64,000 nucleotides of DNA from Profundicola chukchiensis (GTDB lineage Bacteria; Bacteroidota; Bacteroidia; Flavobacteriales; Weeksellaceae). The stretch spans positions 1 to 64,000 of the forward strand of contig NZ_JANAIE010000005.1 in NCBI RefSeq assembly GCF_029664245.1, written 5' to 3'. Of this stretch, positions 1,902-62,378 are shown one piece after another; position 1 is the stretch's first letter, and each line of letters opens with the position of its first letter. The notes beneath the pieces were generated by a model that did no database searches, had not been told where the DNA came from, and worked only from the letters and a program-made list of their open reading frames with translations. The position numbers and the translations under genes were made by a program.

Positions 1902-1950
1902 CACCCCTAAAATCAGGTAGAATCCTGTTTTTAAATTGAATATTAATTAT

Positions 1951-2325
1951 ATGCCAACAATACAACAATTAGTTAGAAAAGGTAGAAAAACACTCACTAA
2001 GAAGAGCAAATCGGCTGCTTTGGAGGGATGTCCACAACGTCGTGGTGTATGTACACGTGTATATACAACGACACCTAAGAAACCGAATTCAGCAATGAGA
2101 AAAGTTGCAAGGGTTCGTTTGACCAATGGTAAGGAAGTAAACGCTTACATTGGAGGAGAAGGACACAATCTTCAAGAGCACTCGATAGTATTGGTGAGAG
2201 GAGGAAGGGTAAAAGATTTACCAGGTGTGCGTTATCACATCGTACGCGGTGCTTTAGACACTGCTGGAGTGAGTGGTCGTTTGCAACGTAGAAGTAAGTA
2301 TGGAGCTAAACGTCCTAAAAAATAA
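1951..2325 (+). CDS. rpsL: 30S ribosomal protein uS12
   Basis: 124 aa, full length. uS12 lies at the decoding centre of the 30S subunit and influences accuracy. Lys43 (in PKKPNS) and Lys88 (in GRVKDLPG), the classic streptomycin-resistance positions, are wild type. The frame is open back to a TTG at 1936, but family alignment ([12 protein letters not shown]) fixes the ATG at 1951. It is the first gene of the supercluster, followed after 19 nt by rpsG. Confidence 0.98.
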
Positions 2326-23513: not shown

Positions 23514-23783
23514 TTACTTACGGATTCCTAACTTGGCAATAATCGCACGATATCTTTCGATATCTGTTTTGATTAAGTAGTCAAGGAAATCTCTTCTTTT
23601 ACCTACCAGATTTACTAGTGCACGCTCGGTGTTATAATCCTTACGATTTTGCTTTAAGTGTTCTGATAAATGCTTGATTCTGTAAGTGAATAAGGCAATT
23701 TGGCTCTCTGGAGATCCAGTGTCATTAGCGTTGATGCCATGCTCTTCAAAAATCTCTCTTTTTTTCTCTGGTGATAAATACAT
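23514..23783 (-). CDS. rpsO: 30S ribosomal protein uS15
   Basis: 89 aa, exactly the usual length. uS15 binds the 16S central domain and forms an intersubunit bridge. Signatures: DTGSPESQIALFTYRIKHLSEHLK and RALVNLVGKRRDFLDYL. In many bacteria it represses its own leader; the leader here is about 33 nt, short for a complex regulatory fold. Confidence 0.98.
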   Translation of the reverse strand: MYLSPEKKREIFEEHGINANDTGSPESQIALFTYRIKHLSEHLKQNRKDYNTERALVNLVGKRRDFLDYLIKTDIERYRAIIAKLGIRK

Positions 23784-23820
23784 TCAAATATTTGTTTAAT
23801 GATTATTATGTACGAAGTCG

Positions 23821-23850
23821 CAAATGTACGGATTATAAATAAGTTGGCAA
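23821..23850 (-). promoter_or_regulatory. rpsO promoter
   Basis: Minus strand TTG (23848-23850), 19-nt spacer, TACATTTG (23821-23828). Matches the Bacteroidota consensus and spacing. Predicted start near 23815. Confidence 0.75.
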
Positions 23851-39167: not shown

Positions 39168-39170
39168 CAT

Positions 39171-39482
39171 TTCAGTCGGCTTGTCGCTTATTTCGATTTA
39201 GAATTAAGAGGAAAGTCCGGACACCATAGTGCGACGCAATGGGTAACACCCATCACTCTAAATCTCTGATTTTGGGGAGGACCAGTGCAACAGAAAGTAT
39301 GTACAGTTCGGCTGTAGTGAAACCAGGTAAACTCTGTGTGGTGCAATGCTATGTATATCAGCTGTTAAGAGTTGCACGCTCGATGCTGAGGGGTAAGCAG
39401 CTAGAGCATTGCAGTAATGTAATGCCCAGATAAATGACAAGCAATCGTTTCGACGAGAACAGAATCCGGCTTATAGACTGAA
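39171..39482 (+). ncRNA. rnpB: RNase P RNA
   Basis: About 312 nt. The ends pair (TTCAGTC at 39171-39177 with GACTGAA at 39476-39482, P1). The conserved core is present on both sides: GAGGAAAGTCCGGACACCA near 39210 and ACAGAATCCGGCTTAT near 39460, which together form P4 and the J elements. It is the catalytic RNA that matures tRNA 5' ends. Exact ends are set by the P1 pairing. Confidence 0.95.
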
Positions 39483-39498
39483 TTTTTTTTTAAAATCT

Positions 39499-45861: not shown

Positions 45862-47097
45862 ATGAGTGTACTAGAAATGAAAGTCCCTTCACCGGGAGAG
45901 TCCATTACAGAAGTTGAAATTGCAACTTGGTTAGTCGAAGACGGAGATTATGTAACTAAAGACCAACCAATTGCTGAGGTAGATTCAGATAAAGCTACCC
46001 TAGAATTACCTGCAGAAGAAAGTGGTATTATTACCCTTAAAGCAGAGGAAGGTGATGTGGTAAAAGTAGGAGGCGTGGTTTGTCTTATCGACATGAGCGC
46101 AGAAAAACCTGCTGATGCCGACAAAGAAGCACCTAAAGCTAAAGAAGAAGCTCCTAAGGAAGAGCCTGCAAAACCTGCAGCGCCTAAAGAAGAGCCAAAA
46201 TCTTATGCAACGGGTTCAGCATCTCCTGCGGCTAAGAAAATTATTGCAGAGAAAGAAATCGACGCTTCTCAAATCAAAGGTACGGGCAAAGATGGTCGTA
46301 TCACTAAAGCAGACGCTGAGAGCTTTGTTCCTTCTATGGGAACTGCACCAGCCTACGCTAATAGAGGAGTGGAGCGCAAGAAATTATCTCGTTTAAGAAG
46401 ATCTTTATCAGAAAGATTAGTTTCTGTTAAGAACGAAACAGCGATGTTAACTACCTTCAACGAGGTTGATATGTCTGCTATCTTCGAATTGAGAAATAAA
46501 TACAAAGAAGAGTTCAAAGCTAAGCATGGTGTAGGATTAGGCTTTATGTCTTTCTTTACAAAAGCTGTTGTACGTGCGTTGCAAGCTTTCCCAGAAGTTA
46601 ACGCTATGATCGACGGAGACTACAAAGTTTCTTACGATTTCATGGATATTTCTATCGCCGTATCAGGTCCAAAAGGATTGATGGTACCAGTTGTTAGAAA
46701 TGCTGAAATGTTAACTTTCAGAGGAGTTGAGCAAAACATTAAAGATTTAGCAATCAAAGTACGCGATGGGAAAATTTCTATCGATGAAATGACTGGAGGA
46801 ACCTTTACAATTACCAACGGAGGAGTTTTCGGATCTATGTTATCAACACCGATCATCAACCCACCTCAATCTGCAATCTTAGGAATGCACAACATTGTTG
46901 AGCGTCCAGTGGTTAAAAACGGAGGAATCTCTATTGCGCCAATCATGTTCGTAGCACTTTCTTATGACCACAGAATTATCGACGGTAGAGAGTCTGTTGG
47001 ATTCTTAGTAACGGTTAAAGAAGCATTAGAAAACCCAGCAGAATTATTGATGGGTGGTACAGACGATGCTAGCATCAGACGTGCATTAGAGCTATAA
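45862..47097 (+). CDS. sucB: dihydrolipoamide succinyltransferase (E2)
   Basis: 411 aa. One lipoyl domain with the modified Lys44 in EVDSDKATLELP, a Lys/Pro/Ala/Glu-rich linker, an E1/E3-binding domain (ATGSASPAAKKIIAEKEID), and the catalytic domain ending with the acyltransferase motif SYDHRIIDGRE. Together with SucA and Lpd it forms the 2-oxoglutarate dehydrogenase complex. No lpd gene is adjacent. Confidence 0.98.
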   Translation: MSVLEMKVPSPGESITEVEIATWLVEDGDYVTKDQPIAEVDSDKATLELPAEESGIITLKAEEGDVVKVGGVVCLIDMSAEKPADADKEAPKAKEEAPKEEPAKPAAPKEEPKSYATGSASPAAKKIIAEKEIDASQIKGTGKDGRITKADAESFVPSMGTAPAYANRGVERKKLSRLRRSLSERLVSVKNETAMLTTFNEVDMSAIFELRNKYKEEFKAKHGVGLGFMSFFTKAVVRALQAFPEVNAMIDGDYKVSYDFMDISIAVSGPKGLMVPVVRNAEMLTFRGVEQNIKDLAIKVRDGKISIDEMTGGTFTITNGGVFGSMLSTPIINPPQSAILGMHNIVERPVVKNGGISIAPIMFVALSYDHRIIDGRESVGFLVTVKEALENPAELLMGGTDDASIRRALEL

Positions 47098-47125
47098 ACA
47101 GTATATTTTTAATATAAAATTAATT

Positions 47126-47166
47126 AAACTTTCAAGGTATGTATTTATCTTGAAAGTTTTTTTTTG
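47126..47166 (+). terminator. intrinsic terminator after sucB
   Basis: Perfect 11-bp stem (47126-47136 with 47149-47159), 12-nt loop, then nine Ts. Confidence 0.92.
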
Positions 47167-47236
47167 GGCGAATTTTCAGCAGGTTTTTTTCAATGGATGA
47201 AAAAAAACGGCAGAAAACCGCGCTTTCCCGCCAATA

Positions 47237-47330
47237 TTTGGCCTGTGTGCTTACAAAAAATCTCGTGGAAAGAGTTTGTGCAAGCACGCCACTTTTCCAC
47301 TTCGTTTTTTGTAGAAGCACACAAACCAAA
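47237..47330. repeat. long imperfect inverted repeat
   Basis: About 94 bp folding on itself with some 35 paired bases. Arms: 47237-47241 with 47326-47330; 47244-47252 with 47315-47323; 47253-47260 with 47305-47312; 47265-47272 with 47293-47300; 47274-47275 with 47291-47292; 47278-47280 with 47285-47287. Outside it, CAGAAA (47211-47216) can pair with TTTCTG (47334-47339). No transposase is nearby. It may be a MITE- or REP-like element or a structured RNA. Confidence 0.7.
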
Positions 47331-47502
47331 GGATTTCTGTACAATCGCTTTCGCGCTCTGAGTCTAACATATCTACCAAGCAAAAGCTTATTATATTTTT
47401 TAAAGAATCGAACTTCACTGATGGCTATTCTCCCGACTTTCTCTACCTAAAAATAGCCTAAGTTTAATAAAAACCTTATTTTTACATTATAAATTCTACA
47501 TT

Positions 47503-49629
47503 ATGTCAGAACGTAAAGATTTTTCAGGCATTTCACTTGATCTTAATATACTTAAAGAACAACCCAAAGTCCAAACACAGGAATTTGATGGTTTAAAAGT
47601 GCAGAATGCTTATGAAAACATCCCAGATCTAAGTGAAAGATTTGTTTCTGGATTTTCACCTTACTTGAGAGGTCCGTATACAACAATGTATGTAAAAAGA
47701 CCTTGGACTATTCGTCAATATGCAGGTTTTTCTACCGCCGAAGAATCTAATGCTTTTTATAGAAGAAACTTAGCTGCCGGACAAAAAGGTTTGTCGGTTG
47801 CTTTCGACTTAGCAACACACCGCGGATATGATTCAGATAACGAGCGTGTGCGTGGAGACGTAGGAAAAGCAGGAGTTGCTATCGACTCGGTAGAGGATAT
47901 GAAAATTCTTTTCGATCAAATTCCATTAGATAAAATTTCTGTTTCTATGACCATGAATGGTGCAGTTTTGCCAATTTTGGCATTTTACATCGTAGCTGGT
48001 GAAGAGCAAGGTGTTTCACAAGACCAACTTAGTGGAACCATTCAAAATGATATTTTGAAGGAATTTATGGTTAGAAATACGTATATCTATCCGCCAAAGC
48101 CTTCCATGAAAATTATTTCAGACATTTTTGAATATACAACCCAACATATTCCAAGATTCAACTCGATTTCCATCTCAGGTTACCATATGCAAGAAGCAGG
48201 CGCGACGCCAGCGTTAGAAATGGCGTATACCTTAGCCAACGGATATGAGTACGTGAAAACAGGATTAGAAGCAGGATTAGATATTGATGATTTTGCGCCA
48301 AGATTATCTTTCTTCTGGGCTATCGGAATGAACTTCTTCCAGGAAGTGGCTAAACTAAGAGCCGCAAGAATGCTTTGGGCTAAATTAATTTCTGAGTTTA
48401 AGCCTAAGAATAAAAAATCATTAATGCTGAGAACTCATTGCCAAACGAGTGGTTGGAGTTTAACAGAGCAAGAACCTTACAATAATATAGCTAGAACGGC
48501 CATTGAAGCATTAGCAGCGACTTTAGGTGGAACTCAATCTCTGCATACTAACGCACTAGACGAGGCAATTGCATTACCAACAGATTTCTCGGCACGTATT
48601 GCAAGAAATACACAGTTAATTATTCAAAATGAGACCCAAATTACGAGAACCGTAGACCCAATGGGTGGATCTCATATCATTGAAAACTTAACTCAAGAAA
48701 TCGCAGAAAAAGCTTGGGAATTTATTCAAGAGGTAAATGAATTAGGTGGAATGACCAAAGCTATCGAAGCTGGAATTCCAAAAATGAGAATTGAAGAAGC
48801 CGCTGCAAGAAAACAAGCCAACATCGATTCTGGAGAAGATATTATTGTTGGAATCAACGGATTTAAATCAAATTTAGAACAAGAGCAATTCGAGATTCTA
48901 TCTATTGACAATACGGAGGTTCGTAGAAAGCAAATCGAAAGATTAGAGCAAATCAAGAGTACTCGTAATCAAGAAAAAGTGGATGCAGCTTTAGAAGCTA
49001 TTAAAAAAGCAGCTAAATCTGGCGAAGGAAACCTTTTAGCTTTAAGCGTTACAGCAGCAAGAGAGCGTGCAACATTAGGAGAAATTTCAGATGCTATGGA
49101 AGAATCATTCGGAAGACATAAAGCCAAAATTCAATCGATTCAAGGCGTTTATGCATCGGCAGCAGCGGATGTAGATAGCTTTAAAAAAGCTCGAAAAATG
49201 GCGGATGAATTTGAGCAGAATGAAGGGCGTAGACCAAGAATTATGGTGGCTAAAATGGGACAAGATGGTCATGATCGTGGAGCAAAAGTGGTTTCGACTA
49301 GTTTCGCAGATATGGGATTTGATGTGGATATTGCACCGTTGTTCCAAACACCAAAAGAAGTGGCTAAACAAGCCATAGAAAACGACGTTCATGTGCTAGG
49401 AATTTCATCTTTAGCAGCTGGACACTTAACCTTAGTTCCTGAAGTTGTTAAGGAATTAGAAAAACTAGGAAACAAGGATATTTACATCGTAGTAGGTGGA
49501 GTAATTCCTCAGCAAGATTATGATTTCTTATACAAAAATGGAGCGGATGCCATATTTGGTCCAGGAACTAATTTAACACATAGTGCGATTAAAATTCTAG
49601 AGGAATTACAATCAGCTAAGACAAAATAA
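47503..49629 (+). CDS. methylmalonyl-CoA mutase, large (catalytic) subunit
   Basis: 708 aa. The N-terminal TIM barrel has [20 protein letters not shown] and [19 protein letters not shown]; the C-terminal B12 domain has the cobalamin-ligand motif DGHDRG with His590. It interconverts succinyl-CoA and (R)-methylmalonyl-CoA using adenosylcobalamin. Bacteroidota usually have a heterodimer; the small subunit gene is not adjacent, so it lies elsewhere or the enzyme is a homodimer. The neighbours sucAB and a 3-hydroxyacyl-CoA dehydrogenase fit propionate, odd-chain or branched-chain metabolism. Confidence 0.95.
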
Positions 49630-60060: not shown

Positions 60061-60301
60061 TATAAAATTGAAAGATAAACCACGGTTTAAAATTTTAGAA
60101 TTTTTATTAAACTCGAAGCGCGACAAGGATTGGTATAAAAATACTTTTTTTTGCCGAAAAGTTAAAAATAACATCGAAAGAGAGTGACCGCAGGAAGCTC
60201 CTCTGGCAAGCATATTTGTCTTTTTTGCGGAGAAAGATTGAAATGGAAAGCCTGTGTGTCGCCCAAATTTAACTTGCAGTTAAATCAATGCAAAAAAATC
60301 T
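60061..60301 (+). other. spacer before uvrC with a GC-richer segment
   Basis: The first half is AT-rich. From 60184 to about 60275 the sequence looks richer in G and C and can form a CCGCA (60188-60192) with TGCGG (60226-60230) pairing. The uvrC reading frame is open through it, but UvrC homology starts only at 60319. I cannot assign a function. Confidence 0.4.
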
Positions 60302-62266: not shown

Positions 62267-62277
62267 TCTCGTAAACT

Positions 62278-62355
62278 TTAGGGGTGTTCTAAATGTAATT
62301 AGAACTGAGAAATACCCTTTGAACCTGATCTGGTTAGTACCAGCGAAGGGAAAAG
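62278..62355 (+). promoter_or_regulatory. TPP riboswitch (THI element)
   Basis: The conserved TPP core is present: GGGGTG near 62281, CTGAGA with the AATACCCTT that closes the helix, TGAACCTGATCTGGTTAGTACCAGCGAAGGGA ending near 62352 (given here in two contiguous blocks: TGAACCTGATC, then TGGTTAGTACCAGCG). It binds thiamine pyrophosphate and lowers expression of thiS-thiC. It is located 121 nt upstream of thiS. Confidence 0.95.
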
Positions 62356-62358
62356 TGA

Positions 62359-62378
62359 AATGCGTTTGCGCATTCTTT
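62359..62378 (+). terminator. candidate expression-platform terminator of the riboswitch
   Basis: AATGCG (62359-62364) pairs with CGCATT (62369-62374) around a 4-nt loop, followed by CTTTTC. A plausible terminator that TPP binding could favour, though the T run is short. Confidence 0.5.

Follow-up and report, generated by a model that had tools for sequence, protein, structure and literature searches.

Flavo-1 was described by Weinberg et al. in 2010, who count it among the probable RNAs (PMC2864571), and it is filed in Rfam (RF01705) as an sRNA; the literature we found on Flavo-1 gives it no function. In the F. psychrophilum transcriptome, Flavo-1 matches lie in either direction relative to transcripts, sense as well as antisense, and many are not transcribed (PMC9723704). 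Like REP sequences and REPtrons, Flavo-1 elements are dispersed extragenic hairpins with many copies in both orientations, but they are much longer and have neither a conserved GTAG foot nor a link to a Y1 gene. Like MITEs, they are short, non-coding, dispersed and present or absent at orthologous sites; unlike MITEs, their inner arms vary and exchange while the core ends alone are kept, and neither a target-site duplication nor a parent transposase was found (Y1_Tnp being the transposase sought). Integron attC sites combine a conserved folded base carrying bulges with a variable terminal structure, and one strand is recognised. The likeness of attC to the Flavo-1 fold is one of analogy, and inspection of Flavo-1 by eye revealed no attC boxes.

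The locus studied here lies in a 64,000-nucleotide stretch of Profundicola chukchiensis DNA (the window), in the spacer between the end of sucB (47097) and the start of a mutase gene (47503). A terminator-like hairpin of sucB (47126–47159) and its T run occupy 47126–47165 (+); they directly adjoin the element described below and are not part of it. Beyond this terminator, an earlier note on the same DNA had seen a long imperfect hairpin with nested arms at 47237–47330, distinct from the terminator and richer in GC than its surroundings, and this description is borne out. The two arms (47237–47260 and 47307–47330; 24 nt, 79% complementary) enclose a nested pair (47252–47271 and 47294–47313), and the RNA fold of 47200–47370 has a minimum free energy of −50.5 kcal/mol (z = −4.2), with none of 200 shuffled sequences folding as well. 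GC content is 41–44% in the element region (41% at 47237–47330) versus 15% and 27% in the flanking spacer. An Rfam scan of the spacer gave sub-threshold matches alone, to unrelated families. In no relative that we examined, not even the congeners, was sucB found beside the mutase gene, and the spacer could therefore not be compared across genomes. The mutase has its nearest named match in Vaginella massiliensis, consistent with a place in Weeksellaceae.

Further copies were found when 47160–47400 was searched against its own assembly using BLAST, which rules out a sequence without a second copy; the best of them (L002) matched at 79% over 136 nt and the others were shorter. To describe the family we used two covariance models built without the window copies: R1, covering the distal arm and lacking the Flavo-1 core, and R2, a 154-position model from 25 copies that include Rfam Flavo-1 matches. 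At E ≤ 0.01, R1 listed at least 20 copies in the own assembly, at least 33 in the congener G002 and at least 9 in the congener G001, all genome-search copy counts being lower bounds. The pattern ACAAAAAA-N35-60-TTTTTTGT occurred at five sites in the 2.6-Mb genome (each read on both strands), compared to 0 for the reversed control. At the DNA level, the query gave matches in 2 of 59 relatives alone; these were short and fell outside the hairpin (query 21–61), and the family is therefore detectable between genomes by structure alone. Matches to R1 and R2 in other genera rule out a lack of conservation. The 11 own copies first examined were intergenic and of mixed orientation. In G002, four near-identical copies (L252, L260, L270 and L274) were preceded by degenerate AAACC-rich tracts (for example, CCTTAAACCTTAAACC), possibly a target preference or a piece of a larger unit.

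Several sister copies led to Flavo-1. Against the Rfam model (gathering score 42), they scored 56.4, 40.4, 40.3 and 29.7 bits in matches spanning the hairpin, with 64.9 bits for L020, and the paralogs L004 and L020 reached the gathering score. The Rfam model misses the window copy, giving no match at gathering across the window and none at E ≤ 1 in positions 46900–47700, which we read as divergence and not as non-membership. Held-out R2 matched the window copy over its full length at 47205–47360 (−), with 111.9 bits and an E-value of 6.5e-25 (rough, as for any of our custom models). This segment of 156 bp is almost certainly a long-form Flavo-1 element, made up of core, mid stem and apical domain, the long-form register being fixed at ~154 nt. 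The hairpin at 47237–47330 is its distal part alone. The long form shares with RF01705 the core arms, a series of small symmetric internal loops, hosts among Flavobacteria and many copies per genome; it differs in having a ~62-nt apical domain where the 76-position Rfam model has a variable, unmodelled loop. Flavo-1 does occur in Flavobacteriales, with matches in 54 of 99 relatives.

By alignment to R2, the 5' core arm of the window copy, GCGATTGTACAGAAATCC, lies at 47331–47348 (−) and the 3' core arm, AAATATTGGCGGGAAAGCGCGG, at 47218–47239 (−). This anatomy disposes of the near direct repeats CGCTTTCCCG and CGCTTTCGCG as candidate target-site duplications, both being internal to the element and in or next to the two core arms. 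An outer pairing of CAGAAA with TTTCTG, also proposed in the earlier note, does appear in the single-sequence fold but clashes with the covariation-supported structure, and we set it aside because TTTCTG is in the 5' core arm and CAGAAA in a 3' extension. That extension (47166–47217, −) holds a second hairpin (arms 47173–47192 and 47198–47217) and has a TTCGCCC end at 47166 by an A run; we infer that it belongs to the element. Comparable extra 3' hairpins with ends ATTCGCCC were present in L005 and L025, and a different hairpin occupied the same place in L271. Where copies have such an added hairpin beyond the 3' core arm, the ends were ATTCGCCC or GCCGCCC, and the sequence varied while pairing was always kept.

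The window holds a second long-form copy at 60114–60267 (+), matched by R2 with 100.7 bits (E = 3.3e-22, again rough) and by R1 with 46.7 bits, just upstream of an ORF named by eye from its sequence as uvrC. Elsewhere in the window are an RNase P class A RNA (39168–39489, +), a TPP riboswitch (62270–62368, +) and an S15 leader (23781–23828, −).

The apical domain of the first copy (47250–47315, −) was matched by R1, with the window copies held out, at 41.6 bits (rough E = 6.6e-8), and is made of an outer A/T stem, a CGAA/GAGA internal loop, a 7-bp stem, an AGU/ACU box and a bulged C. In copies from the genus, the loop of Flavo-1 is a conserved arm with the motif AGCGACC...GAAGCUC. It starts with an outer stem rich in A/T, followed in about half of the copies by a 4×4 internal loop of the CGAA/GAGA type; then come a stem of 7 bp, AGC/GCU, the GA/AA internal loop and, in most copies, CC/GG. 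The C bulged after GCU was present in 29 of 29 main-type copies; the window copy is one of the four members (L001–L004) of a subgroup in which the box is compensated to AGU/ACU. Exact AGCGACC-N2-7-GAAGCTC was concentrated in the genus, with 11, 21 and 2 copies, and controls were near zero (296 genomes). R1 matches extended to other genera and, within the order, to the family groups f2 and f3. We examined 14 R1 loci, of which 10 came from genera other than the own one and that of G016; among the 14, the Rfam model found Flavo-1 (E ≤ 0.1) in 8 and R2 matched full length in 13, at 51–114 bits; the one counted as a miss, L369, was not run against R2, had no Flavo-1 match and is probably a chance R1 match. 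Independent core and apical parts co-occur in a fixed register in different families; the long form is thus a true architecture, to which the apical domain genuinely belongs. Canonical short copies (~90–120 nt) scored 50–71 bits with R2, their apical part being absent or replaced. The Flavo-1 core was already known; the conserved, covarying apical domain is new.

Copy numbers were high elsewhere in the order, with at least 106 Flavo-1 matches in the complete genome G010 and at least 37–40 in three others. None of 39 canonical copies overlapped an ORF (ORFs being simple length-based calls); relative to their neighbours, 16 were antisense, 8 sense, 9 between convergent genes and 6 between divergent ones. 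Most copies had an A-rich 3' edge, CTAAAAA after AGCTCCT. No replication-strand bias was significant in the four complete genomes (G010 p = 0.06, others 0.5–1.0), a test that used the listed stronger matches and in which GC skew was too weak to place the origins. In one case (G027:C1:285502-286001), two opposed Flavo-1 copies lay within 500 bp, a BIME-like pairing.

Comparison of sites between genomes pointed to turnover. Downstream of mdh, an element was present in G000 and G001 in opposite orientations and none was detected at the G002 locus; upstream of tgt, the element had one orientation in G000 and G001 and the opposite one in G002, the spacers at both loci being too diverged to establish a common insertion. 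We also compared ten G010 sites, taken from the strongest matches, with the related species G061 and G077. Most were filled and in the same orientation, and movement is therefore slow. Empty-looking sites were seen for L186 in both genomes and for L187 and L195 in G077; their junctions did not align, and no target duplication, transposition event or enzyme was identified. At several of the ten sites the outer ends matched and the inner stem was entirely different; in one case it was identical to the stem of another site, L189 in G061 bearing the arm of the L187 site. Such swapped inner stems are the outcome of copy-to-copy exchange or replacement.

The covariation check proposed in the earlier note gave a strong result. 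In the arm, 15 of 20 pairs changed on both sides (covariation score 0.467 versus 0.134 for shuffled and 0.072–0.171 for slid controls), and in the whole element 33 of 39 did so (0.649 versus 0.175 and 0.105–0.139), the latter score being favoured by a structure that is the RNAalifold consensus of the same alignment. Compensatory changes could partly come from replication-template switching in hairpins, without selection. Read on the Flavo-1 strand, canonical stems contained 41 G.T versus 9 A.C mismatches (p = 6e-6 under a symmetric selection rule, optimistic because some copies are related), and apical stems 6 versus 0, under a selection rule that here favoured G.T. Recognition of double-stranded DNA predicts equal counts; the excess of G.T therefore indicates that structure is selected on one strand.

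To account for these patterns, we propose that Flavo-1 elements are non-coding repeats, dispersed within genomes by spread and turnover, and that selection would keep one strand's fold, which some factor would recognise in trans either during copying or exchange or, when transcribed, as RNA. Copies would survive where they are harmless, between genes and in either orientation, and mostly have no effect on their neighbours, while inner arms would be swapped among copies. The long form would be the complete version, and the short forms of other genera may have lost the apical domain or taken a simple hairpin in its place. We give about even chances to this reading, in which a putative partner acting in trans recognises the folded single strand of a dispersed element. 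The turnover of copies, the swapping of arms and the selection on one strand speak for a dispersing element over an ordinary sRNA gene, and the long form offers an RNA or single-stranded DNA bait for a partner protein as well as a better covariance model for annotation. A more specific version is unlikely as it stands: that Flavo-1 is a mobile element moving via a folded single strand (RNA or ssDNA), served by an enzyme unrelated to Y1/RAYT, with the long form as its complete substrate and the short forms as defective descendants. A possible SINE-like, RNA-mediated route would fit the one-sided tolerance of G.U and the A-rich 3' edge.

The strong conservation of the long form and its apical loop from one family to another is also compatible with a function as a host RNA. 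In this main rival reading, which we hold less likely, the long form could be a structured sRNA or part of an untranslated region, with an apical loop to which a protein or RNA binds; the reading draws on the covariation, the purine-rich internal loops, the invariant apical loop and bulged C, the tolerance of G.U far above A.C on one strand and the original listing as a probable RNA (PMC2864571). Signals of an independent transcript were scarce, however: the sense promoter TAnnTTTG was not clearly enriched upstream (8 of 69 elements versus 7% in random 120-mers), and at least six T within 40 nt downstream were found in just 2 of 69 elements. The rarity of the T run, together with the separate sucB terminator that precedes the element, also led us to reject an intrinsic (sucB) terminator. 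A host RNA is further opposed by an orientation neutral to genes, by 37–106 copies per genome (lower bounds) and by the many untranscribed matches in F. psychrophilum.

We think it unlikely that the element is a site, in duplex or cruciform DNA, for a protein that organises the chromosome or acts as a regulator, an explanation that high copy number and extragenic position would suit. The imbalance of 41 G.T to 9 A.C is unexpected for a symmetric site, and arm sequence changes freely while pairing stays.

That Flavo-1 is a REP which depends on a Y1 transposase (RAYT) for its mobility is very unlikely in our view, even though it is an extragenic hairpin repeat and the own genome has one Y1_Tnp gene. 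None of 20 Y1_Tnp genes had Flavo-1 within ~1.5 kb, no Y1_Tnp was found in the Flavo-1-rich genomes G061 (at least 42 copies) and G028 (at least 37), and GTAG or GGAG was present in 18 of 59 5' arms, which does not amount to a conserved foot; these results largely refute a RAYT-dependent REP. The earlier reading of the locus as a MITE- or REP-like element or structured RNA therefore survives in its repeat copies and selected structure and fails as a strict REP (RAYT/Y1, GTAG foot), the Flavo-1 identity having been missed; MITE identity is unproven. The idea of a single-copy imperfect palindrome that arose by chance has nothing in its favour except that hairpins are generally abundant in AT-rich spacers; it is refuted by the fold (z = −4.2), the homologous copies (at least 20) and the held-out model match (E = 6.5e-25, rough), and its probability is negligible.

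The survey of Y1_Tnp genes brought up, in two relatives, sub-threshold matches to another Rfam sRNA, Acido-Lenti-1 (RF01687; gathering score 37). One of 31.2 bits lay beside a Y1_Tnp gene at 1355–1402 (−) of L223 (G012:C2:436700-440100), and one of 35.5 bits beside a Y1_Tnp gene at 1944–1988 (+) of L224 (G041:C21:30300-33700). What is filed as the Acido-Lenti-1 'RNA' may instead be a hairpin at the end of an element with a Y1 transposase.
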